A stretch of DNA of 64,000 bases from Thiomonas sp. FB-Cd (GTDB lineage: Bacteria > Pseudomonadota > Gammaproteobacteria > Burkholderiales > Burkholderiaceae_C). Below the pieces are notes generated by a model. That model worked only from the letters and a program-made list of their open reading frames with translations. It searched no databases and was not told the DNA's origin. Where the stretch lies: NCBI RefSeq assembly GCF_000733775.1, contig NZ_JPOE01000005.1:1116001-1180000 (forward strand). The letters are read 5' to 3'. Position numbers and translations under genes: made by a program. This document shows positions 43,495 through 64,000 of this stretch, in pieces (position 1 is the first letter of the stretch; each line of letters opens with the position of its first letter).

Positions 43495-43845
43495 CGAGCC
43501 AAGAGCGGCCTGAACAAGTCCATTCTCGATCAGGGCTGGGCCGAGTTCCGCAGGCAACTGGACGACAAGCTCCAGTGGAGTGGCGGGTGGCTTGTTGCGG
43601 TGCCGCCGCACCACACCAGTCAGACCTGTCCATGCTGCGGCCACATCGCGGCCGACAATCGCCGCACGCAGGCGCAATTCAAGTGCGTGGCGTGTGGCCA
43701 TGCGAACCACGCCGACCTGGTTGGCGCGATGAATATCCTGGCGCGGGGACACCGCGTTGCAGCCCGTGGAGAGGTGGCGCATTCAGGCCCCTCGATGAAG
43801 CAGGAACCCACCGAAGCGACTGCGCACGAGGTCACTCATGCCTAG
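43495..43845 (+). pseudogene. TnpB (IS200/IS605 OrfB) C-terminal remnant
   Basis: The frame from about 43495 reads RAKSGLNKSILDQGWAEFRR, PHHTSQTCPCCGHIAADNRR, and CVACGHANHADLVGAMNILA. These are the RuvC-II-adjacent helix, the CxxC...CxxC zinc finger and the RuvC-III Asp (HADLVGAMN) of TnpB. Everything N-terminal, including RuvC-I, is missing and is replaced by the ATPase fragment. The frame ends at a stop at 43843. It is a dead copy, but the zinc finger and the right end of the element remain. Confidence 0.85.
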
Positions 43846-43852
43846 CGCCGCA

Positions 43853-43912
43853 GGAATCCCCGTCCTTGCCGCGCAAGCGGTGGCCACTGGCCAAGGGCGG
43901 GGTGGATGTCAA
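43853..43912 (+). mobile_element. Right end of an IS200/IS605-type element
   Basis: Just downstream of the TnpB stop lies ggaatccccgtccttg, an imperfect inverted match to caagggcggggtggatgtcaa at about 43892-43912 (stem of 11 bases with one mismatch). The gaatcccc...ggatgtcaa pattern is the usual right end of these elements, near where the guide RNA of TnpB would be made. The final tca also serves as the stop codon of the next minus-strand gene. Confidence 0.55.
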
Positions 43913-45444
43913 CGGTTCACCCATGCGCGCAACAGCCGGGCGACAACATGTGGGTGCTGCGTACGCAGATAGGCTTCTCCTGCCATTTTGATCGCCTCAC
44001 CTTGCGTGGGATGCGCATGCACCACGGTGGCCAGTGCGCCCAAGCCCATTCCGGCCACCATCGCCATTGAAATGCCGTTGATCATTTCACCAGCATCCCG
44101 GGCAACAATGGTGGCTCCAAGAATGGTATCGGTCCCTTCCCGGACGTGAATTTTCACAAAGCCGTTTTCTTCGCCATCGGTGATGGCGCGGTCGTCATCA
44201 TGCATCGGCACCGTAAAGGTTTTCACTGGAATATCGCGTTCGCGCGCCTGCCGCACCGACATGCCAATGTGGGCGATTTCCGGGTCGGTGTAGGTGCACC
44301 ACGGAATCGTCAAGACGCTCATGCGCTTGCGTCCATAGAACAAGGCGTTTTGAACCGCGACGCACGCCGACGCCACCGCCATATTGCTGTACTTGTGCTC
44401 CAGGCAAACATCTCCAGCGGCGTAAATGCGTGGATTGCTGGTGCGCAGGAAATCATCGACGTGGACCCCTGCTTCAGGGTCGTAAGCTACGCCGGCAGCT
44501 TCCAGCCTGAGCGCACGCACTGCCGGCATGTGACCGATCCCAGTCAAAATTTCATCGACATCGACGGTGGTGAGCTGACCGTCATTGACCAGTTCGACGC
44601 GTTTGCGGCCGTGTTCCATGCGGGCGCTGAGGACATCGCTATTCAGGTGGATCTCGACGCCATCGCGGGCCAATGCGTCAGACATCATCTGCGCTGCGTC
44701 ACGCTCTTCCTTGGGCAAAAACAAGGGGGCGTTGTGGGCGATGATGGTTTTCACGCCCAAGCGACTGAACGCCTGCGCCAATTCGCAGCCAAGCGGACCG
44801 CCGCCAATCACCAGCAGACTGCGCGGAGGCACCGTCAGGTTGAACACCGATTCGTTGGTCAGGTAACCCACCTCGGTCAGGCCCGGGATTTCGGGCACGA
44901 TGGAGCGTGATCCGGTGGCAATCAGCGCCTTCTTGAAGCGCAGGCGCTGGCCGGCAACTTCGACCGCATCGGCGCCGACGAAGTGTGCAACCCCGAAATA
45001 CAGATCGATGCCTTCAGCGATCAGTCTGGCAGCTGAGTCCACGCGGCTGATGCGGGCGCGGATGTGTCTCAACCGCTCCATCGCCATCTGGAAATCAACC
45101 TCGATTGCCCGCGGTGGAACAGCGCCAAAATTTGGGGCGTTGCGCATGTCGGCATACACGCGCGCGGTTCGAATCATCGCCTTCGAAGGCACGCAACCGT
45201 AACTCAGCGAGCCGCCGCCAAGCCGGTGGCGCTCGATCAACGCCACTTTCACGCCAAGTGCGGCTGCGGTGCGTGCGGCTGCAATGCCACCAGGGCCGGC
45301 GCCAATGATGAGCAGCTGATAAACGCCGGATGGCGTCGGGTTGACCCAGTCGGCCGGCCTGACGTTGGACAGAAGCTCTTGCTCGTGGGGATCTCCTCCC
45401 AGGCCAGCGCTTGCGTTCGTGGGGGGCGGCGTGGTTATCTGCAT
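43909..45444 (-). CDS. Pyridine nucleotide-disulfide oxidoreductase with one redox cysteine lost
   Basis: A 511-residue FAD enzyme of the dihydrolipoamide dehydrogenase / mercuric reductase family. FAD site IIGAGPGGIAAARTA (about residues 46-60), NAD site VIGGGPLGCELAQAFSR, AAGDVCL, and the C-terminal HAHPTQGEA with the catalytic His-Glu. The redox motif reads GGGSLSYGCVPSK (about 76-88) where the family has GGTCLNxGC: the first Cys is Ser (TCG codon, residue 79), so no active-site disulfide can form. The last codons and stop lie in the IS right end. It is last in the operon; its 5' end is 19 bases after the glycoamylase stop. Start at ATG 45444 because 45564 is a TTG. Confidence 0.85.
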   Translation of the reverse strand: MQITTPPPTNASAGLGGDPHEQELLSNVRPADWVNPTPSGVYQLLIIGAGPGGIAAARTAAALGVKVALIERHRLGGGSLSYGCVPSKAMIRTARVYADMRNAPNFGAVPPRAIEVDFQMAMERLRHIRARISRVDSAARLIAEGIDLYFGVAHFVGADAVEVAGQRLRFKKALIATGSRSIVPEIPGLTEVGYLTNESVFNLTVPPRSLLVIGGGPLGCELAQAFSRLGVKTIIAHNAPLFLPKEERDAAQMMSDALARDGVEIHLNSDVLSARMEHGRKRVELVNDGQLTTVDVDEILTGIGHMPAVRALRLEAAGVAYDPEAGVHVDDFLRTSNPRIYAAGDVCLEHKYSNMAVASACVAVQNALFYGRKRMSVLTIPWCTYTDPEIAHIGMSVRQARERDIPVKTFTVPMHDDDRAITDGEENGFVKIHVREGTDTILGATIVARDAGEMINGISMAMVAGMGLGALATVVHAHPTQGEAIKMAGEAYLRTQHPHVVARLLRAWVNR

Positions 45445-45463
45445 GGCTGCAAGGTTGCGGCGA

Positions 45464-46843
45464 TCACAGCCACCCGCCTTTGAATCCAGCACGGCGCAAG
45501 CCGGTCTGGAGGATTCTTGACTGACGGCCCAATTCCCATAAGAGGCCGCTGCGGTAGTTTTCAATCATCAACACTGTCATGCCCTGGTCCAGCCCAAATT
45601 CGCCCTCGGAAATCCAGCATGCATCGAGCGCGTTGAAACTGGCGTTAATGCCGCTGGAACGCAAGGCCTCCCCTTGGTGAGGCGCGCCTGTGGCAAAGAG
45701 ATTGCGCATGGCGGGCAGCGCAATCTCTGGCGCAAAAACCAGCGACGCCGTGATCGATGGACCCGCGATGGTGCCGTCATCAGGGCCGTACGGAACACCC
45801 CGCGCGGCATAGCCGAAGAACCGTTGTTGCTGAGCGCCGATGAGTCGCGGCTCTGCGCTTGGCCCTTCACCCGCAGAAAGGCCCCAGCAGTTATCTGCAT
45901 ACCCGATGAAGCTGTGCGGATTGCGAATGGCATATTCGCGCTGCACATAGGTGGCACGACGGCTGTTTTCGAAATAGTCGCTTCGCTTCTCGCGCATGAA
46001 TCGATCGCGGATGCCCCGAAAGTCGATCCACGCATGGGAGAACTGGTGAATGAACAGAGGCCCCGCATAGAGAAAATCGTAGCCGTAGAGATTCTCCCAT
46101 TGATAGGTCACCGTCCACGCCTCAAAGCTTGCCGCGGTGAACGGATGCGTCGGCGAACCCAGGCCCAAGGCATAAAGCAGGATGGCTTCGCTATAGCCCT
46201 CCCAACCATAGTGCAAGAAGCCACATTCGGGCTTCCAGCCTTGGGCCACGGTTGCACCCTTGTATTGCGCCCAGCGCCAATTCACCCTGCGGTACAAGCG
46301 ATCGGCCAGTTCACGCATTTCCACCTCGGCAGGGGTACTCGCGTCAAAGTACGCGGCGGCGGTGAGCATTCCGGCGATCAGCAAGGCGGTGTCAATCAGC
46401 GACAGTTCGGACTGCCAGACACGGACGCCTGTTTCCATGTCGAGAAAATGAAAGTAAAAGCCTTGATAACCGGTGGCCTCAGGGCTTCCCGTCTGGTCGC
46501 TGTTCCAGAAGAACCGCATGCAGCTGAGGCAGGCTTGCACGGCAGCGTCGCGTTCGATCCAGCCATGCTCCACCGCCACCGGATAGGACGAGAGTGCAAA
46601 GCCAGCCACCGCGATGCTTGCGGGCGATCCCTGCCGTGTGGTGTCGGCGACCAAACCGTTTCGCGGGTTGCTTGCTTTCGGAAAGTAGTTGAAGGCGGCC
46701 TGCTGCAGGCTGTCGAACATGGTCGCATCGGCGTGTTTCATCGCCTCAGCCGTGATCGCCGCGTCAAGCTGGATCGACGTATGCATCATCACCATTCCAG
46801 CGGGTTTGTCGGAGTCTGAAATCAGACAAGATGCCGGCACCAT
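45464..46843 (-). CDS. Glycoamylase-family protein (free-standing NdvB-type domain)
   Basis: A 459-residue all-helical (alpha/alpha-barrel) protein of the glycoamylase (PF10091) family, the domain found in the middle of cyclic beta-1,2-glucan synthases. Signatures: LQQAAFNYFPKASNPRNGLV, VAGFALSSYPVAVEHGWIER, SELSLIDTALLIAGMLTAA, YGWEGYSEAILLYALGLGSP and the hallmark DNCWGLSAGEGP. No signal peptide is seen. Its ATG directly follows the pgm stop (TGAATG); alternative starts at 46795 or 46786 are possible. The GH94 half of the same multidomain family is encoded at the other end of this operon, so the two may act together on a beta-glucan. Confidence 0.85.
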   Translation of the reverse strand: MVPASCLISDSDKPAGMVMMHTSIQLDAAITAEAMKHADATMFDSLQQAAFNYFPKASNPRNGLVADTTRQGSPASIAVAGFALSSYPVAVEHGWIERDAAVQACLSCMRFFWNSDQTGSPEATGYQGFYFHFLDMETGVRVWQSELSLIDTALLIAGMLTAAAYFDASTPAEVEMRELADRLYRRVNWRWAQYKGATVAQGWKPECGFLHYGWEGYSEAILLYALGLGSPTHPFTAASFEAWTVTYQWENLYGYDFLYAGPLFIHQFSHAWIDFRGIRDRFMREKRSDYFENSRRATYVQREYAIRNPHSFIGYADNCWGLSAGEGPSAEPRLIGAQQQRFFGYAARGVPYGPDDGTIAGPSITASLVFAPEIALPAMRNLFATGAPHQGEALRSSGINASFNALDACWISEGEFGLDQGMTVLMIENYRSGLLWELGRQSRILQTGLRRAGFKGGWL

Positions 46844-48535
46844 TCAGCCGGTTTGGCTCGTTACTGCTGCGGCCCTCGGGGCCACTGGCGCAATGGCAGC
46901 ATCCACAATGCGTTGCGCTTCTTGGAGAATGCGCTGCAAGTGCTCTGGGCCCTGAGTGCTCTCGGCATAAATTTTGTAAATGTCTTCCGTGCCCGACGGC
47001 CGCGCCGCAAACCAGCCGCTGCTGGCCACAACCTTGATGCCGCCAATCGGTGCATCGTTGCCGGGCGCCTTGTTGAGGATGTTCTCGATTTTTTCTCCAG
47101 CCAGTTCGGTTGAGGCGATCTGTTGCGGCGTCAATGCAGCCAACTGCTTTTTCTGCAGCGCTGTGGCCGGCGCTTCCACTCTGTCAGCCAGCGGAGGATT
47201 GCCGAAGGCCCTGGCCAATTCCTTATACAGGGCGCCGGGATCGTGGCCCGTGCGGGCGGTGATTTCGGCAGAAAGAAGCGCCGCCGTCAGGCCATCCTTG
47301 TCAGTGGTCCAGACCGTGCCGTCGCGGCGTAAAAATGCAGCGCCTGCGCTTTCCTCGCCTGCAAAGCCCAGCGTACCGTCCAGCAGGCCTTTGGAGAACC
47401 ATTTGAACCCGACGGGCACTTCGTCGAGGGTACGACCAAGTCGGGCTGTGATCTGGTCGATCAAGCGCGTGCTGACAACGGTCTTGCCAACGGCAGCCTG
47501 CGCGCTCCATTGCGGCCGATGCCGAAACAGGTAATCGATTGCGACCGAAAGATAGTGATTCGGCATGAGCAAGCCAGCGGTGGGAGTGACGATGCCGTGG
47601 CGGTCGTGGTCGGTATCGCAGGCAAAGGCGATGTCGAAGCGGTCCTTCATCGCGAGCAAGCGTTGCATCGCGTATTTCGATGACGGGTCCATTCGAATCT
47701 GCCCGTCCCAGTCCAGAGTCATGAAGCGAAAGGTCGGGTCGACGATCTCGCTGACCACTTCCAAATCGAGCTTGTAGCGCTCCGCGATGCGGGCCCAATA
47801 GTGAGCGCCCGCGCCGCCCAGCGGGTCGACGCCCATGTGGATCTTGGCGCTGCGAATCACGTGCATATCAATGACGCTTCCAAGATCGCCGACATAGGCG
47901 CCGAGAAAATCATGCCGACGCGTGGTCGCTGCACGCAGGGCCTTGGTGTGCAGCATGCGCTTCACACCATCAAGGCTCTTTTCGAGAAGGCGGTTGGCCG
48001 CAGCGCCAATCCAGTCGGTGATGTCCTGACCGGCGGGGCCGCCATTGGGCGGGTTGTATTTAAAGCCGCCATCGCGCGGCGGGTTGTGCGACGGCGTCAC
48101 CACAATCCCGTCGGCCAGCCCTGTGCTGCGGCCACGGTTGTGGGTCAGGATCGCATGCGAAATGGCCGGCGTCGGCGTGTATTCATCGTTCAATGCCAGC
48201 ATCACCTCGACGCCATTGGCAGCCAGAACTTCCAGCGCACTTGCGCATGCTGGCTCGGATAACGCATGCGTGTCGATTCCCAAGAACAGCGGCCCATTGA
48301 TGGCATGCGCCTTGCGGTATTGGCATATGGCCTGCGTGATGGTGAGGACATGCGCTTCGTTGAACGAAGCGTCAAAGGCCGAACCACGGTGCCCCGAAGT
48401 GCCGAAGGTCACGCGCTGCGCTGCGACCGTTGGATCGGGGATGTTGACGTAATACGCTGTCACGAGCTTTGGCACATCGACCAGCGATTCGACAGGCGCT
48501 GCCTTGCCCGCAAGCGGGCTTATGTGGGTGCTCAT
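46844..48535 (-). CDS. pgm: Phosphoglucomutase (alpha-D-glucose phosphate-specific)
   Basis: A 563-residue enzyme interconverting glucose-1-P and glucose-6-P. The active-site serine lies in VTPSHNPPRDGGFKYN, the metal loop in ACDTDHDRHGIVT, the sugar loop in GFAGEESAGAAF, and the phosphate loop in ASSGWFAARPSGTEDIYKIY. Length is normal. It overlaps the tkt stop by four bases. In this operon it would turn glucose-1-P from the GH94 phosphorylase into glucose-6-P. Confidence 0.96.
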   Translation of the reverse strand: MSTHISPLAGKAAPVESLVDVPKLVTAYYVNIPDPTVAAQRVTFGTSGHRGSAFDASFNEAHVLTITQAICQYRKAHAINGPLFLGIDTHALSEPACASALEVLAANGVEVMLALNDEYTPTPAISHAILTHNRGRSTGLADGIVVTPSHNPPRDGGFKYNPPNGGPAGQDITDWIGAAANRLLEKSLDGVKRMLHTKALRAATTRRHDFLGAYVGDLGSVIDMHVIRSAKIHMGVDPLGGAGAHYWARIAERYKLDLEVVSEIVDPTFRFMTLDWDGQIRMDPSSKYAMQRLLAMKDRFDIAFACDTDHDRHGIVTPTAGLLMPNHYLSVAIDYLFRHRPQWSAQAAVGKTVVSTRLIDQITARLGRTLDEVPVGFKWFSKGLLDGTLGFAGEESAGAAFLRRDGTVWTTDKDGLTAALLSAEITARTGHDPGALYKELARAFGNPPLADRVEAPATALQKKQLAALTPQQIASTELAGEKIENILNKAPGNDAPIGGIKVVASSGWFAARPSGTEDIYKIYAESTQGPEHLQRILQEAQRIVDAAIAPVAPRAAAVTSQTG

Positions 48536-50700
48536 GGTCGTGCTCCTGACTCGGATGATGGCCGGCGCGCCAGTTGCTGCCTGGCGGCCGCCACGACATG
48601 CGCGACGTCAAAGCCAAAAAGCGCTTGGGCGATTTTGCCCGGCGCCGACAAGCCAAACGTACGCATGCCGAGAATGGCGCCGTGTTGTCCAGCATAGCGC
48701 TCCCAGCCCAGCGGCGATGCCGCCTCGACGGATACACGCGCCGTCACCGCTGGCGGCAAAACGCTATCGCGGTATGCCCCGGATTGCGCCTCGAACAGCT
48801 CCCACGATGGCATGCTGACGACGCGGGCCTGTATGCCGTCACGCATCAATTCTTCACGCGCGGCAACGCACAACGCCACTTCGCTTCCCGTCGCCAGCAG
48901 CAGTACGTCCGGCTTTCCATCAGCCGTGTCGGCCAGCACATAGGCACCTCGCGCGAGCCCGGAGGCGCTGGCGTAGCGGCTGCGGTCGAGTGTGGGAAGC
49001 GCCTGGCGTGTCAGCACCAGGCTGACCGGCCGGTCCGTCATGTGCATGATGACCTTCCACGCCTCGACCACTTCATTGGCGTCAGCCGGGCGCAGCAGCA
49101 CCATGCCGGGCATCGCCCGAAACGAGGCCAGCTGCTCGACGGGCTGGTGCGTCGGTCCGTCTTCGCCCATGATGATGGAGTCGTGCGTCCAGATGTAGAT
49201 CAGCGGAAGCCCCATCATCGCGCTGAGCCGAATGGAGCCCCGGCAGTAGTCGGTGAAGACAAGGAAGCTGGCGGCGAAGGCACGCAGTTTCGACAGCGAC
49301 AGGCCGCTCGCCACAGCGCACATTGCATGTTCGCGAACGCCGAAATGAAGGTTGCGCCCGGCATAGGAATGCGCCCTGTCTTCATGACCAGCAGGTGGCT
49401 CGAAGTCGCCTGCAAAGTCAAAGCTCAGATGGGTTTTGGTCGATGGTGACAAGTCGGCCGCGCCCCCGAGCAGCCAAGGCATGTGCGCGGCAATGGCATT
49501 GAGCACCTTGCCCGAAGCGTCCCGCGTGGCGATGCCCGTGGAATCCGCCGCGAAACTCGGCAGCGATCTGTCCCAGCCGTCGGGTAAGGCACGCTGCTGC
49601 ATGCGCTCGAATTGCAATGCCAGATCGGGATACTGACGCCGATACGCGTTGAATAACGTCGTCCAATCGGCATGGGTCCTGGCGCCACGCGTGCCGAAGT
49701 GCGCGCTGAAGTGCTCAGTCACTCCATCCGGAACCGCAAATTGCACGTCCGGGTCGAAGCCGAAAAACTCTTTGGCAAGCCGCACCTCTGCGATGCCAAG
49801 CGGTTCCCCGTGGGCTTCCTTGGTGTCTTGCTTGTGAGGCGCGCCGTAACCAATGTGGCTTTGCACGATGATCATCGTCGGGCGGTCATCGGTGTTGATG
49901 AAGCGCTGCAAGCCGTGCGTCAGCGCGTCGAGGTCGTTCGCGTCCGCCACCTGCACAACCTGCCAGCCGTAGGCTTCGAAGCGCGCGCCAACGTCCTCCG
50001 TGAAGGTGATGGCGGTCGAGCCCTCAATGCTGATGTGGTTGTCGTCGTAGATCCAGCACAAATTGGCGAGCTTCAAATGACCGGCCAGTGATGCCGCCTC
50101 GCTGCTGATGCCCTCCATCATGTCGCCGTCGCCGCACAAGGTGTAGACGTTGTGATCGAACAGCGCGAAGCCTGGGCGGTTGTAGGTGGCTGCAAGCCAA
50201 GCTGACGCCATTGCCATGCCAACGCTGGTCGCCGCGCCCTGGCCAAGCGGCCCGGTCGTGGTCTCGACGCCGGTCGCGGCACCGAATTCCGGGTGACCGG
50301 TGCAGCAACTTCCCGCTTGGCGAAAGTGCTGCAGCGCGTCCATGGTGACGGCCTTGCCGAACGGCTCGGCCTCCGTCTCGCTGCCGAGCGCGCCCTGCGG
50401 CTTCACCCGGCACAGCAACAAGAGGCTGTAGAGCAGCGCCGAGGCATGGCCCGCTGAGAGCACGAAGCGGTCGCGGTTTGGCCAGTCGGGCGCGTTCGGG
50501 TCGTAGCGCAGAAAACGCTGCCACAGGCAGTAAGCGGCGGGTGCTGCATCCAATGGCGTACCGGGGTGGCCGGAGTTTGCCCTTTGCACGGCGTCGATGG
50601 ACAGCGCACGCAGCGTGTTGATACAGAGCTGATCGAGCTGCGCCGGAGTCGGCGCCTCGTTGCGATCGGCGGGGAGAGTGCTCTGCGCACGCTGGTTCAT
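48532..50700 (-). CDS. tkt: Transketolase
   Basis: A 722-residue TPP enzyme moving two-carbon units in the pentose-phosphate pathway. TPP motif GDGDMMEGISSEA, substrate His in SGHPGTPLDAAP and TGHPEFG, and the second-domain THDSIIMGEDGPTHQPVEQL block with the conserved Glu. It is full length and overlaps both neighbours by four bases. It cooperates with Tal, and phosphoketolase uses its products. Confidence 0.96.
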   Translation of the reverse strand: MNQRAQSTLPADRNEAPTPAQLDQLCINTLRALSIDAVQRANSGHPGTPLDAAPAAYCLWQRFLRYDPNAPDWPNRDRFVLSAGHASALLYSLLLLCRVKPQGALGSETEAEPFGKAVTMDALQHFRQAGSCCTGHPEFGAATGVETTTGPLGQGAATSVGMAMASAWLAATYNRPGFALFDHNVYTLCGDGDMMEGISSEAASLAGHLKLANLCWIYDDNHISIEGSTAITFTEDVGARFEAYGWQVVQVADANDLDALTHGLQRFINTDDRPTMIIVQSHIGYGAPHKQDTKEAHGEPLGIAEVRLAKEFFGFDPDVQFAVPDGVTEHFSAHFGTRGARTHADWTTLFNAYRRQYPDLALQFERMQQRALPDGWDRSLPSFAADSTGIATRDASGKVLNAIAAHMPWLLGGAADLSPSTKTHLSFDFAGDFEPPAGHEDRAHSYAGRNLHFGVREHAMCAVASGLSLSKLRAFAASFLVFTDYCRGSIRLSAMMGLPLIYIWTHDSIIMGEDGPTHQPVEQLASFRAMPGMVLLRPADANEVVEAWKVIMHMTDRPVSLVLTRQALPTLDRSRYASASGLARGAYVLADTADGKPDVLLLATGSEVALCVAAREELMRDGIQARVVSMPSWELFEAQSGAYRDSVLPPAVTARVSVEAASPLGWERYAGQHGAILGMRTFGLSAPGKIAQALFGFDVAHVVAAARQQLARRPSSESGARP

Positions 50701-51635
50701 GAGGCCACTCCTGGCATGGCGCGCGCCATGCGTCCACGCTCGAAAATATCAACCCACTCGCGTAGGCGTCCGGCAATTTGTGCTGCCGCCGCCACGCGCG
50801 TCAGGGTCCCCGTGCGGTAAGCGGCAACCGCATCCCAAAAGCTGGTGCGGCCCACGGCGAATCCGATGAACCCTGGCACGCCGGCAGCCGTCGCAAGCCA
50901 ACTGCGTACGCTGGCTTCGTCCGCACCACGGCCAAGCACGATGCAACTGACCGTGCTGCGCCCACCGCGCCGCACCGCGTCGACTATCCCGACGCAATCG
51001 TCACGCTCGGCGAGTCCCTCGATCTTCCACACGTCGGGCTCAATCCCGGCGTCTTGCAAGGCATGGATCGCTTCGACCATGAGCTTGGGGCGCATCGTGA
51101 GGTCATACGCTGCACGGTCGCCCTTCAGCCCGGCAAGTTGTTGCTCGGTCGCTGGCACCAGCAGTTCGAACATGAAGCGGCGCTCGTTGGCCTGGCAGAC
51201 ATCGGACAGTTGCTTCAGGCGTTGCGCCTGGCGCAAGTTCATCGCATGGTCGCCCTCGGGGTTGTAGCGCACCAGCACCTTGGCAAACGTCGGATCGAAG
51301 ACTTCGATATGACGGGCAAAGTCGTCGCCGTATTCGAACCTGAACTCCTCCGAGCCACTGCTCTCGGTAGACAGCGCGGTGATGAAACCGCGCTGGTGCG
51401 CATCTCGCAAGATGGCGCTGCCAAATTCTTCGTCGACCAAGATGCCCGCCGCATCGCGCGGCACACCCGCCTCCAGGGCCAGCTGAAAGCCTTCATAAAT
51501 GAGCTGCTTGCTGTCGCAGACGTCTGCGTGCTGCTGCGTGGTCAGGGGCGGCTTGAAGTGAAACATCCCGGTGAGGTAGGAATGTCGGTGGTCGAATGGC
51601 AGCAAATACAGCGCCTGGTCGTCGCCTGATGTCAT
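50697..51635 (-). CDS. DUF2090-type aldolase-like TIM-barrel protein
   Basis: A 312-residue protein of the DUF2090 family, related to the C-terminal domain of bifunctional IolC and to tagatose-bisphosphate aldolases. Landmarks: [65 protein letters not shown] and [18 protein letters not shown]. It is likely a class-I type barrel using the conserved Lys in VWKIEG or KVLVRYN, but that is inference. It sits between tkt and pgi with four-base overlaps. Could act on a keto-sugar phosphate or be a lactonase substitute; no 6-phosphogluconolactonase gene is present. Confidence 0.75.
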
Positions 51636-53317: not shown

Positions 53318-54405
53318 GACGTGCTGACCTGCGCAAGACGCGCTGCTTTGGTGCCGATTGCCTGCAAGAGCTGACGCCACGATGCAACAAACGCCTCAGC
53401 GCCTTCGCGCTGCAGGCGCTCGGCCAGTGCCTCGAGGTCGATGCCCTCGCGGCCGAAGTCTGCAAGCACAGCCTCTGCTGCGCCTCCATCCGGAGGCAGC
53501 ATGTGCTTAACTTGGCCGTGGTCGGCGAAGGCAAGCAGCGTCTTTTCTGGTGCGGTGTTGATGGTGAGTGGCGCTGCCAGGGCCTCGACATACAGGGTGT
53601 CGGGTGCCTGCGGGTCCTTGGTGCCCGTGCTGGCCCAAAGCACGCGCTGCGCGCGGGCACCAGCCGCAGCCAACTTCTGCCAACGGGGCGTGCCGAGCAA
53701 GGCGCAATACGCTTGGTACGTTTGCATGGCCACCGCAATGCCGAGGCGGTTGCGCAACCGCGGTGGAACGGCGTCTTTCACCGCGACATCCCAGCGACTG
53801 ATGAAGAGGGACGCGACCGAGCCGACATTGGGATCGCGCCCCGCCTCGATGCGCCGCTCGATGCCTCGCAAATAGGCCTCCGCCGCAGCCAGGTATTGAT
53901 TGCACGAGAACAGCAGCGTGACATTGACGGGAGTGCCGGCAAAGATGCACGCTTCAAACGCCACCAAACCTTCGACGGTACCCGGAATTTTGATGAACAG
54001 GTTGGGCCGATTGGCGCGCGCATGCAGTTCGATCGCTTCCTTGATGGTGTTCGCGGCGTCATGGGCCAACAGGGGAGACACTTCCAGCGAGACCCAGCCA
54101 TCCACCCCGGCGCTGGCATCGAAGGTGGGGCGGAACAAGTCGGCCGCCTGGGTCAGGTCTTCCAGCGCCAACTCAAAAAACAGGCTGCCGTCCGACTTGC
54201 CTGTGCCGGTCTGGCGGCGAATTGCGGCGTCGTAGGCCGTGGAGTGGCCGATGGCGTGCTCGAAGATGGTCGGGTTCGAGGTCAGGCCAGTCACATGCAA
54301 GTCGCGGATATAGCGTGCCAGCGTACCGCTGGCGAGCAACTCTCGCGTGATGTTGTCGAGCCATATGCTTTGGCCGAGGTCGTGCAATTCCTGTGTGGGA
54401 TTCAT
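53314..54405 (-). CDS. tal: Transaldolase
   Basis: A 363-residue transaldolase. The Schiff-base lysine lies in [16 protein letters not shown]; also [16 protein letters not shown] at the N-terminus and [20 protein letters not shown]. Length fits the longer bacterial/plant-type subfamily. It starts in overlap with the HAD gene. Together with Tkt it converts pentose phosphates to fructose-6-P, another phosphoketolase substrate. Confidence 0.95.
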
Positions 54406-55115
54406 GGCAATTCCTCTTTTGAACGACTGGTTGATTTTTGCCCCAACAACGTGGGGAGATCGATGGCCAGCAAATCACCGATGCAGTCGAGGCTGATGTC
54501 GGCCTGCGGATAATTCGCAATGTTGGTCGGGTCGGTGGCGTAATGGCCCTGGCGTGCAAATATGGTCGTCAGGCGTGCGCCGAGGCCTTGCTTCATGGCG
54601 GCAAGAATGCGCAGCTTGTCGTCCACCATGACATAGTGTTGCGCCGGGAAGCGTTCCTGCATCGGGTGGAGCATGCGTTCCTTGTGGAGATAGATGAGCA
54701 CGCGGCCTTCGACGGCGCGCCACAGGCCGGAGCGCTGCACCTTGCGCGGCTGGAACACAACGTCGCCATCGGTCAGCACCACCGTCGTGCCCAATGTCTG
54801 GAGTCGCTTGATGACGCCGAGCGCCCCGGCATAGAGCCGCTCGGCGAAGGGATAGTCGATGAGAAAAGTGGACATTTCGAGAAGCCGCGGATCGCTCTGC
54901 GCATCGCTTAGCTCATCCATGCGGTAGAGCTGCAAGGCGCCCAGGTAGTCGGCATAGCCGAGTTCGCTGCGCAATTGCTCGAAGAGTGCCCAGTAGCGCT
55001 CAGCGCTGACGTGGCCGAAAGTGCGCTCCAGGTGCTGCCTGAGATCGTGGATGACACGGTCGTTGTCGAGTAGCGTGTTGTCCACGTCCAGCAAGAAAAC
55101 GATATCCGAGGTCAT
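54402..55115 (-). CDS. HAD-superfamily hydrolase
   Basis: A 237-residue HAD phosphatase with motif [11 protein letters not shown] (residues 10-19), motif II VVLTDGD, the conserved Lys in [10 protein letters not shown] and motif [12 protein letters not shown]. The cap is helical. It lies between zwf and tal with four-base overlaps on both sides, so it clearly belongs to the sugar module, perhaps as a sugar-phosphate phosphatase. The exact substrate cannot be told. Confidence 0.85.
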
Positions 55116-56524
55116 GGCATCACCGCTTCAGGGTTGGACCAGCCGCCGTCGGCTGCAATCAAGCGGTCGGCCTGGTCTGGCCCCCAGCTGCCAGTCGGGT
55201 AGGCCAGGGCACGCGGGTGTTTGGAGAGAACCGGCTCAACCACGGCCCAGGCAGCCTCCACGGTTTCTTCGCTGGTGAACAAGGCGTTGTCGCCAGACAT
55301 GGCATCGGTGAGCAGGCGCTCATAGGGCGTTTCTTCACCGGCGTCATCTTCAGCCAGGGTCAGTTCGCGTTGATCGCCCTCATAGCCCTTGCCAGGGCGT
55401 TTGACGCGGGCGGCGAGTGCGATCATCGACGTGGGCGATAGCTGGAAGCGCAGGTAATTGGTCTGCACGCCGCTTGCCACGGCGTCGGCGAACAGCGCCT
55501 GGGAAGGCGGCTGCAAACGAATCAGCACCTCGCAGCTGGTCACTGGCAGCTGCTTGCCAGCCCGCAAATACCAGGGCACGCCGGCCCAGCGTTTGGAGGC
55601 GATGTGCAGACGCATCGCGCAATAGGTCTCAACATCCGAATCCCTCGCGACCTGCGGCTCATCTCGATAACCCGCGTACTGGCCGCGCACCATGTCGGCA
55701 GGGTGCAAGGGACGCATCGCCTTGAAGATCTTGAGCTTTTCGGCGTTGACGGCCGCGAAGTCGCGCCTTGTGGGTGGCTCCATCGCCAGCAGGGCTGCAA
55801 TCTGAAAGAGGTGGTTCTGGATAACGTCGCGCAGGCATCCGGCGCTCTCATAGAACTTTCCGCGTCCAAGGACGCCAAAAGCCTCGGCAAGCGTGATTTG
55901 CACACTTGCCACATGCTGGCGGTTCCAGATCGGTTCGAGAAAGGCATTGGCGAAGCGAAAATAAAGGATGTTCATGATCGCCCCCTTGCCCAGGAAGTGA
56001 TCAATGCGGAAGATGGCCTCGCTGGGAAAGGCGTCGGAGGCGACACGGTTGAGTTCGCGCGCCGAGGCCAGGTCGCGGCCGAATGGCTTCTCGACGATGA
56101 CACGCCCCTGCGCAGCCAGACCCGATTTGCTCAGCCCTTGTATGACCGTGGCAAACAGCGCGGGGGGAATGGCCAGATAGTGGGCTGGCCGCTGGGCGGC
56201 ACCAAGTGCCTGTTTGAGTCTGGCGTAGGTGCCCGCGTCGTTGTAATCACCACTGACGTATTGAATTTGAGAGAGGGTTTGGGCCAGTGCGGGCGCATCG
56301 TCCACGGCGCCAGCGCGCTCGATGCTTTGCTTCGCATGGGCACGCAATTGCTCAAGCGTCCAGGGCGAAGAGGCCACGCCGATAACGGACCCATTCAGTG
56401 AGCCGCTCTTTCGCATGGCATAGAGCGCCGGAAAAATCATCTTGTCGGCGAGATCACCGGTGGCGCCAAACACCACCAGCGCATCCGACTGCTGGGCTGA
56501 GGCGGGAGAAGGGTCATCATGCAT
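55112..56524 (-). CDS. zwf: Glucose-6-phosphate dehydrogenase
   Basis: A 470-residue enzyme oxidising glucose-6-P to 6-phosphogluconolactone. NADP-site [19 protein letters not shown] and catalytic [18 protein letters not shown] with the conserved His/Asp/Lys. It is slightly shorter than the usual ~490 but has all domains. I start at ATG 56524 ([11 protein letters not shown]), one base after the gnd stop; the frame to 56656 runs inside gnd. No lactonase gene accompanies it. Confidence 0.95.
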
Positions 56525-56525
56525 G

Positions 56526-57560
56526 TCAGGACTTCGCCTTTGGTGAATCCGGCTTGGGTTCGACGTGACCGCCGAATTCATGTCGCATGGAGGACAGCAC
56601 GCGGTTGGCGAAATCCGCCTGATTGCGCGAGCTGAAACGGGCGTAGAGCGCGGCACTCAGCACCGGCGCCGGCACCGCTTCGTCAATCGCGGCCTGAATC
56701 GTCCAACGACCTTCGCCGGAGTCCGAGACATGGCCCTGAAAGCTGTGCAAGGCGGGATCGGCGGCCAACGCCGTGGCAGTGAGATCAAGCAGCCACGATC
56801 CGATCACACTGCCCCGCCGCCAGACTTCCGTGATCTCAGGCAGGTTCATGTCGAACTGGTACATGGCGGGATCGCGCAGCGGGGTGGTTTCGGCATTGAC
56901 AACGTCGGCCCGTTGACCCACGTTGGCGTTGCGCAAAATATTCAGCCCCTCGGCATACGCGGCCATGACGCCGTACTCAATGCCGTTGTGAACCATCTTG
57001 ACGAAATGCCCTGCGCCATGCAGCCCACAGTGCAAATAGCCCTGGTCGGCGCTGCCGGCATCGGCTCTGCGCCCCGGCGTCGGCACGGCGGTGCCGGCAC
57101 CGGGGGCCAGGGCTACAAACAAGGGATCAAGGTGTTTGACGGTCGCCGCCTCACCACCAATCATCAGGCAATAGCCGCGTTCCAAGCCCGCTACGCCACC
57201 ACTGGTGCCAACATCGACATAGTGCAGGCCCAACGCATGCAATGTGCTCGCGCGACGTATGTCGTCGCGGTAGTAGGAGTTGCCGCCATCGATCACGATG
57301 TCGCGCCTGTCAAGCAGCGGGGTCAGTGCGTCCAGCGTGTCGTCAACGACGGCTGCTGGCACCATCAGCCAGATGGTCCGCGGCTTGGCCAGCGCCTTGA
57401 CCAACTGCCGCAGAGTCTTTGCGCCCTGAGCGCCCTCCTCCTCAAGTGGCTCCATGGCGTCTGCTCGCTTGTCGTGGACGACGCAGCTGTGGCCCGCGCG
57501 CATGAGCCGGCGGGTCATGTTCGCGCCCATGCGTCCCAGTCCAATCATGCCGATTTGCAT
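56526..57560 (-). CDS. gnd: 6-phosphogluconate dehydrogenase, short (decarboxylating) type
   Basis: A 344-residue enzyme of the short GndA/YqeC type that converts 6-phosphogluconate to ribulose-5-P and CO2. Rossmann motif [14 protein letters not shown]; substrate-site [19 protein letters not shown]; catalytic block [20 protein letters not shown]. It starts 15 bases after the GH94 stop. The short form is often NAD-dependent, which would yield NADH rather than NADPH. Confidence 0.95.
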
Positions 57561-57575
57561 GGTGATACTCCTTGT

Positions 57576-60500
57576 CTAGTGGGGTTCTTCCTGAGTTGGA
57601 CATTGCACGCTGACCCTGTGTTCCAGACCATCATCAAGCAATACAAGGACTACTCCTGGTCGATCAACCCCGTCGAGGGACAACCTTGGCTCGCCTTCGC
57701 TCGCAGCCGCCTTTTTCAGCGTGATGTGATAGGTTGTTTTCAGATAGCGGTAATGCACCTTGAATGAAGTCCAGCTTTGCGGCATGCGGGGAGCGAAGCG
57801 CAGCCGGTTGCCCACGCGTTGCAGACCGAGCAGCGATTCGACGATGAAGCGGTACATCCAACCGGCCGAACCCGTGTACCAGGTCCATCCGCCACGGCCA
57901 ATGTGGGGTGCGCAGGCGTAGACGTCAGAGGCCATGACATAAGGTTCTGTTTTGTAGACCGCAATGGCCTTTGGCGAGTTGGCATGCTGAATGGGATTGA
58001 GCATGTTGAACAGCTCCCAGGCCCGATCGGCATCACCAAGCGCGGCACACGCCATGGCCACCCAGACCGCGCCGTGCGTGTACTGGCCACCGTTTTCGCG
58101 CACACCGCCGACATAGCCCTGGATGTAGCCGGGGCTCGGGTCAGAGTGATTGAAGGGCGGGGCCAGCAGCTCGATCAAGGCGGCGTCGCGACGCACGAGC
58201 CGGGTATCCACAGCGTGCATGGCGCGCCGCGCGCGCGTCGCTTGCGCTGCCCCAGACAACACGGCCCAGCTTTGAGCGATGGAGTCGATCTGACACTCGG
58301 CATTGCTCGACGTGCCAAGCGGTGAGCCGTCATCGAACCAACCACGACGGTACCAGTCTCCGTCCCAGCATTGTTGTTCGATAGCATCGCGCAGACGCGT
58401 GGCCTCGCTTGCGCAATGGCTGGCGAATTTGGCGTCACCACGCCGCCGCGCGATATCGCCGAACTGTGAGAGAACGGTGTGCAGGAAGAAGCCGAGCCAT
58501 ACGCTTTCGCCCTTCCCACGCACGCCCACCAGATTCATCCCGTCGTTCCAGTCACCCGAGCCCATGAGCGGCAAGCCATGCTCGCCGAAGCGCGAGCCAT
58601 GCTCAATGGCACGCACGCAATGGGTGTACAGACTTGCCGTTTGCTCGGACCTTGTGGGCAATGCGTAGTCGGACACCGCATCAGGCTTGAGGGCCGCGCC
58701 GTCGATGAATGGCACGATGACATCCAGCACAGCGTGGTCACCCGTGACCTCGACATAGCGACATGTCGCCAGCGGGAGCCAAAGGGCGTCATCCGAGCAG
58801 CGCGTGCGGATGCCGCGGCCTGCCGGTGGATGCCACCAGTGCTGAACATCGCCTTCGGGAAACTGCCGGGAGGCACTGCGCAGCAAGTGCTCGCGCACCA
58901 AGTCAGGGGTGGCATGAACCAAGGCCATCACATCCTGCAATTGATCACGAAAGCCGAAGGCTCCACTTGACTGATAAAACGCCGTGCGCCCCCAGAGGCG
59001 GCAAGCAAGCACCTGATAGACCAGCCAGCCGTTGACGAGGACATCCAGCGCTGGGTCGGGTGTTTCCACCTGCACGGCGCCCAGCGTCAGCGCCCAGTGC
59101 TGCTTCACCGCATCGAGCGCATCGTGCGCTGCGGCGGCTCCACGCCAGCGGTGCACAAGACTGGCGGCCACCGCATCACTCTCGGCCGCACCGAGTCGGA
59201 AAATGAGCTCGCAGGTTTGCCCCGGGGCCAATGTCTGCGGCACACGGATGGCCGCGCATGGGTCGAGCGCGAAGCCGACGGCTCCGCCGAGCAGCGGTTG
59301 TGACATGGCAGCTGGATTGCGCAGAGTGCCGTTGCGCCCGAGAAAGGCCTGGCGGTCACCACATACGGTGGCTTTGGCGATGCCGTCAACATCCAGAAAT
59401 GCAACCCGGCCCGCGAAATCGGTGTTGTAGGGGTTGCGGGCGAATATCGCGCCGCTGCCAGCAGCGATTGCTGTTCCCACAAACATGCGGGTTTTCGCAT
59501 GCTCATCGCCCAGCACCCACTCCACATAGGCCGTCACCGAGAGCCGTCGAACCACGGTCGATGTGTTGTGCAGCTTCAGCGCGGCGAATTTGATCGGTGC
59601 GTCGATGGCCACATACACGATGAGTTCCGAGTCGATGCCATGCTCGCTGTGCCCAAACACGCTGTAGCCGAAGCCGTGCCGTGTCACGTAGGGTGCGGCT
59701 CCTGGCGTGGGCAGCAACGTGGGGGACCAGAACTGGCCATTGTCTTCGTCGCGGATGTAATACGCCTCGGTGTTGGCATCGCCAACAGGATCGTTCGACC
59801 ACGGGGTGAGGCGATATGTCTGTGCGTTCTCGCTCCAGGTGTTTGCGCTGCCGCTCTCCGAAATGAGACTGCCGAATGACGGATTCGCCAGCACATTGAT
59901 CCACGGCGCGGGCGTCATCTGCCCCGGCTTGACCGTGATGACGTACTCACGCCCATCGGCGCTGAACCCGCCCAAGCCGCAGTCCATGAGCAACAGATCG
60001 TGCGCAGGCGCCGGTAGCGAAGGCTTTGTCGCGTCGTCGGCATTGCCCGCATGACGATCGGCCGCGGATGGCGCTGGAGCTTTGGTCGCACTTCGGCGGG
60101 CGAGCTGCTGCGACAAAGAGCCGTCGCCATCGTGCATCACGATGCGCGACGCCGTTTGCAAAAGGACGCGGTCTGACGGGGACACGTCTTTGGCGTCTCG
60201 CAACCATAGCCCGCCCGGTTGATTCATCAATTCAGCCGTGTTGCAAGCACTGCTCGAACGCAGGAGCAGCGCCTGCAGATCCGCCAGGCTCACGGTACCG
60301 CGGTCACTTTCACACAGAAAGACCGTGTCCACCTTCAGGCCATGCCATCGCCAATACGCATGGGCCTGAACGAACTCTCTGACCACATCACCCTGCGACG
60401 GGCACTTCACCTGCAACAGCGCGATCGGCAAATCGCCAGAAATCGAATGCGCCCATAGTGCCGATTGTCCCTGGTTGTTGCTCGCGATGATGCCCGGGCC

Positions 60501-61499
60501 TGCACGCATGGATGCGTTGGCATAAATCAGCGAACTGGCAAGCCCCGCATACAACTGCACATCGCCTTCGCTCATAGCCAGCCGATGCAGGGTTTCGCGT
60601 CCGCGCTTTGCCGCGTCCACAAGAATTTGGTCAGCAGCGGCTCCACTCCGATATCGCTCGATGTCTTGCAGGCAGACTTTGCGTGTTTGCGCCACGCCGC
60701 AAAGCCAACGCACGACAACGGTTTCACCAGGTTCAAGCTCAAGCGGATAACGAATCGACACGGCCGCATCGAGCACCGAGCCGGAGCGCCCCGAAAGCAT
60801 TGCGGCATGGTCCATGGCTTGCGGATGCTCCACGGTGCGTCCGCGTCCGATGAAGTCCGCGCGGTCCGTGTTGTAAGACACACCCCCCAAAGCCGGTTTC
60901 GATGCCTGCAGCAGGTGAAACGCCGATGCCGGGTGGTCCCTGGCACTGCTCACCCGGCGGGTGCACAAGACGGCTTGCTGTGCAGGCAAGATTTCCGTTT
61001 CTACGAACAGCTTTTCAAATGCAGGATGCGTGGAATCCGCTGCATTCGACGTAAGCACGATTTCCGCATAACTTGTGATTTCAATCGCTCTCTTGCCGAG
61101 CGATTGGTTGCTGATCCTGATTCTGCGGAGCTCCACGTCATCGAACGGCGAGACCGCAATTTCCATTTCGATGCTTATGCCATGATCAAGCCGGCGCACG
61201 ATTGCCAGCCCTTCCGAGAACACCGTTTCGTAGACATCTCCCCGTTTCAACGTCGGCTGATACGTCGTCGACCAAACCTGCCCACTCGCGAGATCGCGGA
61301 TATAGCAAAACGGTCCCCAGTGATCGCTGGTTGCATCGTCGCGCCAGCGGGTAACAGCAAGATCCTTCCATCGGCTGTAGCCACCACCGGAGCTTGTGAG
61401 CATGACGTGGTATTCATCATTCGACAGCAAATGCACGTCGGGACGCAAATGACTCAAGTTGCGGCATGAACCTGGCTTGACGGTCCGAGATCTGCTCAT
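57576..61499 (-). CDS. GH94-type glycoside phosphorylase half of an NdvB-like protein
   Basis: A 1307-residue protein corresponding to the C-terminal half of cyclic beta-1,2-glucan synthase (NdvB/ChvB). It has a first beta-sandwich region at about residues 20-260 (LLSNDEYHVMLTSSGGGYSR), a middle region, and a second sandwich at about 490-780. A GH94 (alpha/alpha)6 catalytic domain follows, with GAFGFRDQLQDVMAL at about 845 (general acid Asp) and MGSGDWNDGMN at about 978. The membrane and GT84 synthase half is missing, so it should phosphorolyse or trim beta-glucan, releasing glucose-1-P, and not make it. Start ATG 61499 behind a GGAGG with a six-base spacer; the frame to 61634 is not family-like. 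First gene of the operon. Confidence 0.85.
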   Translation of the reverse strand: MSRSRTVKPGSCRNLSHLRPDVHLLSNDEYHVMLTSSGGGYSRWKDLAVTRWRDDATSDHWGPFCYIRDLASGQVWSTTYQPTLKRGDVYETVFSEGLAIVRRLDHGISIEMEIAVSPFDDVELRRIRISNQSLGKRAIEITSYAEIVLTSNAADSTHPAFEKLFVETEILPAQQAVLCTRRVSSARDHPASAFHLLQASKPALGGVSYNTDRADFIGRGRTVEHPQAMDHAAMLSGRSGSVLDAAVSIRYPLELEPGETVVVRWLCGVAQTRKVCLQDIERYRSGAAADQILVDAAKRGRETLHRLAMSEGDVQLYAGLASSLIYANASMRAGPGIIASNNQGQSALWAHSISGDLPIALLQVKCPSQGDVVREFVQAHAYWRWHGLKVDTVFLCESDRGTVSLADLQALLLRSSSACNTAELMNQPGGLWLRDAKDVSPSDRVLLQTASRIVMHDGDGSLSQQLARRSATKAPAPSAADRHAGNADDATKPSLPAPAHDLLLMDCGLGGFSADGREYVITVKPGQMTPAPWINVLANPSFGSLISESGSANTWSENAQTYRLTPWSNDPVGDANTEAYYIRDEDNGQFWSPTLLPTPGAAPYVTRHGFGYSVFGHSEHGIDSELIVYVAIDAPIKFAALKLHNTSTVVRRLSVTAYVEWVLGDEHAKTRMFVGTAIAAGSGAIFARNPYNTDFAGRVAFLDVDGIAKATVCGDRQAFLGRNGTLRNPAAMSQPLLGGAVGFALDPCAAIRVPQTLAPGQTCELIFRLGAAESDAVAASLVHRWRGAAAAHDALDAVKQHWALTLGAVQVETPDPALDVLVNGWLVYQVLACRLWGRTAFYQSSGAFGFRDQLQDVMALVHATPDLVREHLLRSASRQFPEGDVQHWWHPPAGRGIRTRCSDDALWLPLATCRYVEVTGDHAVLDVIVPFIDGAALKPDAVSDYALPTRSEQTASLYTHCVRAIEHGSRFGEHGLPLMGSGDWNDGMNLVGVRGKGESVWLGFFLHTVLSQFGDIARRRGDAKFASHCASEATRLRDAIEQQCWDGDWYRRGWFDDGSPLGTSSNAECQIDSIAQSWAVLSGAAQATRARRAMHAVDTRLVRRDAALIELLAPPFNHSDPSPGYIQGYVGGVRENGGQYTHGAVWVAMACAALGDADRAWELFNMLNPIQHANSPKAIAVYKTEPYVMASDVYACAPHIGRGGWTWYTGSAGWMYRFIVESLLGLQRVGNRLRFAPRMPQSWTSFKVHYRYLKTTYHITLKKAAASEGEPRLSLDGVDRPGVVLVLLDDGLEHRVSVQCPTQEEPH

Positions 61500-63584: not shown

Positions 63585-63608
63585 CATGCTGGATAAAATA
63601 CCAGCATG
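63585..63608 (+). promoter_or_regulatory. Hairpin covering the tnpB start codon
   Basis: Arms catgctgg (63585-63592) and ccagcatg (63601-63608) pair perfectly around an 8-base AT loop ataaaata. The right arm contains the ATG of the downstream tnpB. It may mark the left end of the element or hide the start codon in the message. The loop also resembles a -10 box. Confidence 0.55.
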
Positions 63609-64000
63609 CAACGGCGCAAAGTCACGCTCAAGCTGTATCCCAATGCCGCGCAGATGGCGCGGCTGGAGGCGTGGACGCGGCTGCACTGCGAGTTGTACAA
63701 CGCGGCGCTCGAAGAACGCATCGATGCCTGGCGCAAGGCCGGCAAGCATGTCTCCTACTACGACCAACAAAACGTCCTACCGCAGATCAAGGCAGATCGG
63801 CCTGAGTTCAACGAACTCGGCAGTCATGCCTTGCAGCAGACGCTGCGCCGCCTCGACCTGGCCTTCCAGGCGTTCTTTCGCCGGGTCCAAGCCGGGCAGA
63901 CGCCCGGCTTTCCGCGTTTCAAGGCAGCGAAGCGGTTCTCGGGCTTCGCGTATCCAGACCCGTCGGGATGGAAGCTCATGCAGCACGGCGGCCGTGGCGC
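63606..64000 (+). CDS. tnpB: TnpB (IS200/IS605 family RNA-guided nuclease), N-terminal part, runs off window
   Basis: The frame from ATG 63606 to the window end (131 codons, no stop) reads MQRRKVTLKLYPNAAQMARL, LHCELYNAALEERIDAWRKA and ALQQTLRRLDLAFQAFFRRV, then GFPRFKAAKRFSGF. This is the helix-turn-helix and wedge/REC start of IS200/IS605 OrfB (TnpB), including the G(F)PRFK motif. It looks intact here. The RuvC active site lies outside the window. No tnpA is seen next to it, as in many IS1341-type elements. Confidence 0.9.
   Translation, partial: MQRRKVTLKLYPNAAQMARLEAWTRLHCELYNAALEERIDAWRKAGKHVSYYDQQNVLPQIKADRPEFNELGSHALQQTLRRLDLAFQAFFRRVQAGQTPGFPRFKAAKRFSGFAYPDPSGWKLMQHGGRG

Follow-up and report, generated by a model that had tools for sequence, protein, structure and literature searches.

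What pathway is encoded by eleven sugar-metabolism genes that follow one another on a single strand in Thiomonas sp. FB-Cd? The genes occupy positions 43909-61499 (minus strand) of the 64,000-nucleotide stretch of contig NZ_JPOE01000005.1 analyzed here (positions 1,116,001 to 1,180,000; hereafter the window). An earlier note on this sequence had described them as a transferable module leading from beta-glucan to acetyl-phosphate without the lower half of glycolysis. We find familiar enzyme families whose combination is conserved and mobile and has apparently not been described. Content and order recur in other genomes, the genes overlap and are under purifying selection, and the cassette is patchily distributed, lies in varied surroundings and has been transferred between genera. 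Its role is probably that of a horizontally moving accessory catabolic cassette, in which beta-1,2-glucan would be converted to glucose-1-phosphate and fed into a dedicated pentose phosphate pathway (PPP) cycle closed by a DUF2090 protein and a HAD hydrolase.

All eleven open reading frames are intact, co-directional and tightly packed, each containing its terminal stop only, and the family names given in the earlier note were borne out at strong Pfam or NCBIfam scores. In the direction of reading, the run begins with a GH94 gene of the cyclic glucan synthase (CGS) type, a predicted cytosolic beta-1,2-glucan phosphorylase (57576..61499; PF06165 in two stretches and PF17167, with a match to PDB entry 8rf0). 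It is followed by gnd, a short-type 6-phosphogluconate dehydrogenase (56526..57560; TIGR00872, PRK09599), zwf, glucose-6-phosphate dehydrogenase (55112..56524 with the ATG at 56524; TIGR00871, 460 bits), a HAD-family hydrolase, candidate sugar-bisphosphate phosphatase (54402..55115; PF00702), tal, a mycobacterial-type transaldolase (53314..54405; PF00923, TIGR00876, PRK03343), and pgi, glucose-6-phosphate isomerase (51632..53317, ATGA start; PF00342, 674 bits). The second part of the run comprises the stand-alone DUF2090 gene, a LacD-like class I aldolase candidate (50697..51635; PF09863), tkt, transketolase (48532..50700; TIGR00232, 765 bits), pgm, alpha-phosphoglucomutase (46844..48535; TIGR01132, 847 bits), a predicted GH144-like beta-1,2-glucanase (45464..46843; PF10091) and a flavoenzyme of the pyridine-nucleotide-disulfide type (43909..45444 with the ATG at 45444; Pyr_redox_2, PRK06370.1-3 with 700 bits against a cut-off of 620). 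As the earlier note stated, most junctions are ATGA overlaps: six of the ten (zwf/HAD, HAD/tal, tal/pgi, pgi/DUF2090, DUF2090/tkt and tkt/pgm) are of this kind, and the remaining four are gaps of 15 nt (GH94-gnd), 1 nt (gnd-zwf), 0 nt (pgm-PF10091) and 19 nt (PF10091-flavoenzyme). For Gnd the cofactor models conflict, since TIGR00872 (406.9 bits, cut-off 297.2) indicates NAD+ whereas PRK09599 (458.4 bits, cut-off 271) indicates NADP.

In a scan based on the DUF2090 alignment with one genome per species, 457 relatives were confirmed and the best 80 were kept; the counts lean to close relatives, many loci are cut by contig ends, and neighbors were identified via tblastn. The complete eleven-gene order was found in five further genomes, which answers the check named in the earlier note: the loci L011, L012 (identical to L118; T. 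delicata DSM 16361), L015 (identical to L146), L040 (Simplicispira psychrophila) and L145, whose GH94 gene is cut by the fetched stretch. The nearest named DUF2090 protein outside the window belongs to a Thiomonas metagenome-assembled genome (MAG; 91%). Across the 80 loci the neighbors were gnd (40), pgi (39), tal (37), HAD (35), zwf (35), pgm (26) and tkt (26), followed by xfp for phosphoketolase (18), PF10091 (13), GH94 (12), the flavoenzyme (10) and ack for acetate kinase (7, in each case together with xfp). Of the six PPP/Pgm genes, 61 loci contain one or more and 39 contain three or more; among the 36 loci with full flanks these numbers are 25 and 18. Directly upstream of DUF2090 and on the same strand, pgi was found in 37 loci and HAD in 8, and GH94 is accompanied by PF10091 in 8 of its 12 loci. 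The locus titles, mostly MAGs, span Acidobacteriaceae, Alphaproteobacteria, Planctomycetota, Verrucomicrobia and Ktedonobacteria. For the eleven genes compared with three carriers each, dN/dS was between 0.087 and 0.244 in all 33 comparisons; all eleven genes are under purifying selection. In two Polaromonas loci a reshuffled cassette lies beside a gene for N-acetylglutaminylglutamine amidotransferase, an enzyme of osmoprotectant synthesis (L009:5565-7397 and L025:18838-20652).

Within the host lineage the cassette is an accessory element. At an orthologue cut-off of E <=1e-60, and with some genomes incomplete, DUF2090 orthologues were found in 6 of the 299 genomes of the family and in 4 of the 21 of the genus, the window's own included. 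Malate synthase is encoded in 20 of the 21 genus genomes, and the window's genome is the only one in which it is next to the cassette. The three other genus carriers have it on a different contig or at a distance of millions of bases, and their DNA past the flavoenzyme gene is unlike that of the window. At the malate synthase locus the nearest relative, genome G301, follows the window with 92.7% identity until 40019 and then continues with other genes and a TnpB copy; no DUF2090 match was obtained in this genome, which is 86% complete. The left edge of the insertion was placed at 40020..40874, where synteny with the G301 contig has ended. On this side the cassette is bordered by malate synthase and xfp, on the other by TnpB sequences, a GTPase gene and an IS1595-type transposase gene, beyond which gyrB, dnaN and dnaA follow at about 13-18 kb. 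The convergent xfp gene (40875..43370, plus strand; PF09364, PF03894, PF09363) is located right after the cluster, as described before, about 540 bp from the flavoenzyme gene end. Between the two lies a TnpB remnant of the IS605 OrfB type (43495..43914, plus strand), which abuts the end of the flavoenzyme gene and was recognized by a search of its own genome: 38 of 40 scored candidates match, and ten copies reach at least 86% over about 418 bp, the remnant itself included in both counts. One of these copies is situated just downstream of the host NdvB gene (C2:1287217-1287633). At the other end a TnpB/OrfB_IS605 open frame identified by Pfam starts at 63597 (63597..64000, plus strand) and continues beyond the window as far as 64880, and in L011 a TnpB-like stretch (72%) was found downstream of the flavoenzyme gene. 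Several of the enzymes are duplicated elsewhere in the host: tkt at 42%, zwf at 38%, xfp at 50% and pgi at 54% (the match containing one TAA) and at 36%.

Transfer between genera follows from the concatenated Zwf-Pgi-DUF2090 tree (17 sequences, unrooted, distant copies read as outgroup; L026 and L044 were dropped from the 18 loci, one of the three genes being missing). With 100% bootstrap support it groups two Pandoraea copies with the window, L011 and T. delicata and leaves two other genus members, L145 and L146, outside this group. Because the Pandoraea copies nest among Thiomonas copies, the cassette must have moved between genera; HemE identity to Pandoraea is 73-74%, compared with 88-89% within the genus. 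Both Pandoraea copies are partial, comprising zwf, tal, pgi and DUF2090 in L013 and zwf, pgi, DUF2090, PF10091 and the flavoenzyme in L014. Here whole genes were lost while the remainder keep their sequence and order, and the kept set may show what the host cannot supply. Patchy presence, differing surroundings, inter-genus transfer and TnpB on both sides are traits of a mobile island, and the transferable character proposed in the earlier note is upheld by the patchy presence, the Pandoraea grouping and the plasmid forms described below.

The substrate is indicated by the glucan end of the run. With 1307 residues from its ATG the GH94 protein corresponds to the GH94 half only; its best PDB match is A. 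tumefaciens Cgs (8rf0, residues 1559-2802; 971 bits), and the next family reaches 290. The longest open reading frame extends to 61634; the start at 61499 chosen in the earlier note agrees with the alignment starts of most relatives tested, at residues 46-65 of this longest frame (30 in L011). D1031 (longest-frame numbering) aligns with 8rf0 position 2528, and D2528 is given as a catalytic residue of R. radiobacter CGS in excerpts of PMC11842490. Across 23 homologous stretches (full synthases and more than one stretch per genome included) the acid is D in 21, E in one and uncovered in one. According to excerpts of PMC10901819, the soluble domains of Cgs are all cytoplasmic and its GH94 part acts as a phosphorylase. 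The window protein thus has the supersandwich and catalytic domains of the cyclic glucan synthase Cgs/NdvB, with the catalytic Asp kept, but it is a separate gene product that lacks the GT84 and cyclase parts. The host encodes its own full-length NdvB (2894 residues), to which the GH94 protein is 54% identical. In a GH94 tree of matches with more than 900 residues and more than 33% identity (L037 and others were left out, and the ten synthases L100-L109 are truncated by their short flanks), ten stand-alone betaproteobacterial forms separate from the full-length synthases with a local support of 0.997. A Gemmatimonadetes half (L035) and Polaromonas-type halves (L115, L117) are placed elsewhere, so that more than one origin of stand-alone halves is possible. 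The possibility that the gene is a broken NdvB was ruled out by its open frame, purifying selection and the separate tree grouping.

The gene labeled "glycoamylase-family" in the earlier note does belong to PF10091, but a starch-type glucoamylase was ruled out by the ranking of the PDB matches, the best of which is the GH144 protein XCC2207/XcSGL (370 bits). XcSGL is reported to hydrolyse beta-1,2-glucan, in a study whose constructs had predicted signal peptides removed (excerpts of PMC12102758). By motif and spacing, the acids D151 and E219 match E142 and E211 of CpSGL; they are kept in 20 and 21 of 22 homologous stretches, respectively. The window protein therefore shares family and acidic catalytic positions with XcSGL and CpSGL, yet it has no evident signal peptide. 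A simple hydropathy scan yielded no N-terminal hydrophobic stretch in the GH94 or the PF10091 protein, with best 12-residue means of 0.95 and 0.15, compared with 1.84 for the L120 PF10091 protein at one of its possible starts. Derivation of the PF10091 gene from the host NdvB was likewise rejected, the best BLAST match having E 0.65 only. Since the catalytic acids are kept and no signal peptide is evident, we infer a cytosolic beta-1,2-glucan phosphorylase and glucanase pair, and the beta-glucan entry of the earlier note can be narrowed, by family and residues, to a predicted beta-1,2-glucan entry. Full-length NdvB frames were found in 5 of 6 DUF2090 carriers and in 76 of 293 other genomes (Fisher p = 0.006, uncorrected for kinship). 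In two Polaromonas-type genomes that belong to one genus (G070, G254) NdvB, a GH94 half, PF10091 and the flavoenzyme adjoin PPP genes, and in G254 a PF01182 (6-phosphogluconolactonase-type) gene follows the flavoenzyme.

The DUF2090 protein (312 residues) carries PF09863 only, with no IolC kinase fusion. Its matches to LacD (3myo) and to 8tnf are weak (E 2e-4 and 3e-4) yet in register. K119 and E157 are invariant in all 86 aligned stretches, some of which come from the same genome, and K204, which we take to be the Schiff-base lysine, is conserved in 85. By motif, K119 and E157 align with two LacD residues named in excerpts of PMC9007349, where an IolC-fused DUF2090 is proposed for the 5-dehydro-2-deoxygluconate-6-phosphate aldolase step. 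LacD-like class I residues are thus common to the window protein, the IolC-fused form and the tagatose-bisphosphate aldolase LacD, but the window protein stands alone inside a PPP operon. By these residues, stand-alone DUF2090 is a candidate LacD-type class I aldolase. In other records, DUF2090 proteins of about 315 residues (P0002, P0006, P0011), too short to include the kinase, carry the name IolC or myo-inositol catabolism protein in their sources. For the HAD protein the only PDB relative at E <=0.01 is 2p11, entitled "Hypothetical protein".

Plasmid relatives were collected via transaldolase at 60-80% identity, resulting in 13 plasmid records, ten of which were examined, L162 and L163 through their annotation only and the others by tblastn. 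At least four further cassette families lie near tal in four of the ten (WDL1, pPNAP02 and both Polymorphobacter plasmids), three in L155 and L158, two in L156, one in L154 and L161 and none in L162. In pPNAP02 of Polaromonas naphthalenivorans tal, pgm, xfp, ack, tkt, HAD, gnd, DUF2090 and PF10091 occur in an order that differs from the window; 8 of the 12 window families (the eleven plus xfp) are present together with ack in this scrambled form, while GH94, zwf, pgi and the flavoenzyme are not in the stretch examined. Variovorax WDL1 plasmid 3, typed as mobilizable, contains GH94, gnd, zwf, GH15, HAD, tal, tkt, pgm, PF10091 and the flavoenzyme with convergent ack and xfp. This is the order of the window without pgi and DUF2090 (GH94 is absent from the gene table there), corresponding to 10 of the 12 families plus ack, with GH15 added. 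A 2842-residue NdvB-like frame lies near PF10091 and the flavoenzyme on pACRY01. On Polymorphobacter p29334-1 the run reads tkt-zwf-rpe-ack-gnd-tal-pgi-rpiA-xfp-class I fructose-bisphosphate (FBP) aldolase-histidine phosphatase, followed by a 3001-residue NdvB-like open reading frame, pgm and tpiA, and a second Polymorphobacter plasmid repeats it with mostly identical protein accessions. In L160 (NZ_CP080242 340000-385000) and L163, both from Polymorphobacter plasmids, an alternate F1F0 ATPase operon lies directly beside the PPP/phosphoketolase/aldolase run, which in L160 is followed by the NdvB-like gene, pgm and tpiA. The Criblamydia plasmid L151 (NZ_LK031773 4652-33980) unites PF10091, acetate kinase, phosphoketolase, GlgP, thymidine phosphorylase, phosphoribosyl pyrophosphate synthetase and metal efflux; this gene set suggests an alternative feed into the same chemistry.

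The Polymorphobacter run contains a class I FBP aldolase (PF00274) and a histidine phosphatase (PF00300) instead of DUF2090 and HAD. By analogy, we infer that the latter two occupy the aldolase and phosphatase slots, and they may close a natural cyclic PPP/phosphoketolase route. With these slots, Xfp, Tkt, Tal and Pgi would make up the enzyme set of non-oxidative glycolysis minus Rpe, Rpi and Tpi, plus the oxidative branch. Non-oxidative glycolysis itself is cited as synthetic in excerpts of PMC12965863. The bifid shunt and this synthetic pathway have Xfp, Tkt, Tal and Pgi in common with the window, and the likeness is extended in the Polymorphobacter plasmid by Rpe, Rpi, Tpi, the class I FBP aldolase, the phosphatase and acetate kinase. 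The window differs in adding Zwf and Gnd, in having only candidates for aldolase and phosphatase and in its optional Xfp. Xfp is facultative: of the other three genus carriers, one gave no match at E 1e-50, and in the remaining two the only Xfp, located elsewhere, shares 50% identity. The earlier route "to acetyl-phosphate" is borne out in part only, as xfp is present in the window but accompanies just 18 of the 80 loci.

The redox motif of the flavoenzyme reads GGGSLSYGCVPSK in the window, with the first Cys changed to Ser. The CxxxxC pair is SxxxxC in the window, L011, L012, L014 and L015, SxxxxS in L040, L043, L079, L081 and L149 and intact in L030 and L148 (L065 and L085, matches of 29%, and L024, a fragment in which the motif is missing, were not counted). 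With SxxxxC in this place the window protein cannot work as an ordinary disulfide reductase; one may guess at a transhydrogenase-like or NAD(P)H oxidase-type function.

Taken together, a pathway can be proposed in which the cytosolic GH144-type glucanase and the stand-alone GH94 phosphorylase would degrade beta-1,2-glucan, most likely that made by the NdvB of the host, to glucose-1-phosphate with no ATP spent. Pgm would convert glucose-1-phosphate to glucose-6-phosphate, and the dedicated isozymes Zwf, short-type Gnd, Tkt, Tal and Pgi would cycle the latter through the PPP, with lactonase, Rpe and Rpi coming from the host. Reduced nicotinamide cofactors and pentose phosphates would be the output. 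In some carriers the neighboring Xfp, sometimes together with Ack, would take acetyl-phosphate off the cycle, and the DUF2090 aldolase and HAD phosphatase probably convert triose phosphate back to hexose phosphate, thereby closing it.

Several observations weigh against this interpretation. The cluster encodes no 6-phosphogluconolactonase, Rpe, Rpi, Tpi or sugar transporter. In 19 of the 80 loci none of the six PPP/Pgm genes is present; six of these have HAD, three of them also xfp. On the WDL1 plasmid (L148:531-4553 and L148:14857-16293) the catalytic acid of GH94 is E and not D and D151 of PF10091 reads A, both unlike all other aligned stretches that reach these positions, and GH15 is inserted; the altered acids and the added GH15 indicate that glucan use is not universal among relatives. 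On a Deinococcus plasmid (L010, NZ_CP092189 281058-310944) a 55% identical DUF2090 lies amid sugar ABC transporter, GH1 and dehydrogenase genes, with no PPP genes in the stretch examined, and the DUF2090 family may serve more than one pathway. With respect to mobility, DUF2090 identity within the genus is 78-92%, near core-gene level, and vertical descent with losses within the genus is possible. Composition was discarded as a mark of foreign origin, being uninformative: GC content varies between 0.59 and 0.69 across the window in 2-kb steps, and the cluster lies within that range.

Other explanations compete with the glucan-fed PPP cassette. The glucan genes might just trim or recycle the osmoregulated glucan of NdvB, the PPP genes having joined them by chance or co-regulation with no dedicated flux. 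Such a role would fit the GH94 part of Cgs, a length-control phosphorylase according to excerpts of PMC10901819 and PMC11842490, the tendency of carriers to have a full NdvB, and the abundance of DUF2090-PPP clusters without GH94, which occurs in 12 of the 80 loci only. We nevertheless consider it unlikely, since GH94 and PF10091 co-occur in 8 of these 12 with Pgm and PPP genes, the same order is kept in several genera and on the Variovorax plasmid, and Pgm, the link from glucose-1-phosphate to glucose-6-phosphate, sits in the same gene run. More credible, albeit still less so than not, is a generic island for survival of stress or low oxygen, which overlaps with the glucan-fed PPP cassette and would provide reducing power and ATP (via acetyl-phosphate and acetate kinase) from interchangeable substrates: GH15/trehalase-like, GH130, alpha-glucan phosphorylase or beta-1,2-glucan. 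Plasmid relatives indeed accompany metal efflux, universal stress proteins, Ack, Xfp, GH15, GH130, GlgP or an alternate F1F0 ATPase, but no such stress gene was found among the scanned proteins of the window (part of its open reading frames) and flanks. Nor does a good FNR-like site precede the cluster. The pattern TTGATNNNNATCAA, with up to 2 mismatches, gave 28 matches across the whole window against 11.6 expected, an excess that was rejected as evidence, as the single match upstream of the cluster (62473) has 2 mismatches. Moreover, the main texts of the papers on the Burkholderia low-oxygen (lxa) locus, searched without their supplements, contain no phosphoketolase, glucan, transaldolase or phosphoglucomutase; they give one general mention of acetate kinase only, and a link to that locus is not claimed.

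Least probable of all is a role of DUF2090 as 5-dehydro-2-deoxygluconate-6-phosphate (inositol) aldolase in a cluster that feeds in carbon from inositol. The proposal of the IolC-fused form for that step in excerpts of PMC9007349 and the catalytic residues common to both proteins speak for it; it is opposed by the missing fusion to the IolC kinase, by the 61 of 80 loci with at least one PPP/Pgm gene (inositol genes being outside that search) and by the identity of only about 26-31% to iolC-annotated plasmid copies among the listed 30 of 130 plasmid records. A bolder variant would see a natural, mobile glucan-fed PPP/phosphoketolase cycle resembling non-oxidative glycolysis, with NdvB glucan as a cytosolic store drawn upon by phosphorolysis, DUF2090 as a new class of FBP/sedoheptulose-bisphosphate aldolase, HAD as the bisphosphatase and no need for lower glycolysis; we regard this as doubtful. 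The bypass of lower glycolysis proposed in the earlier note may be kept as a conjecture only, for a cluster that itself lacks lactonase, epimerase and pentose isomerase.

Elsewhere in the window, a large indolepyruvate ferredoxin oxidoreductase-type protein (DUF6537, POR domains) is encoded at 22336-25962 on the plus strand, and no RNA families or tRNA genes were detected in the window. The earlier note did not recognize the combination as a described system, and a literature search by title and abstract start among the open-licence papers listed, several lists being limited to 15-20 titles, likewise found no published description of the cluster. That note had not mentioned DUF2090 as an aldolase, the flanking TnpB, the full-length NdvB of the host or the plasmid forms.

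If the proposed pathway is true, a transferable cassette burns or ferments an envelope-type glucan via a duplicate pentose phosphate pathway, and beta-1,2-glucan would be a carbon and energy reserve beyond its role as osmoregulant or symbiosis factor. A concrete function is thereby offered for stand-alone DUF2090, a widespread orphan group named inositol-catabolism protein by some sources, and the cassette may represent a natural counterpart of an engineered carbon-conserving pathway.

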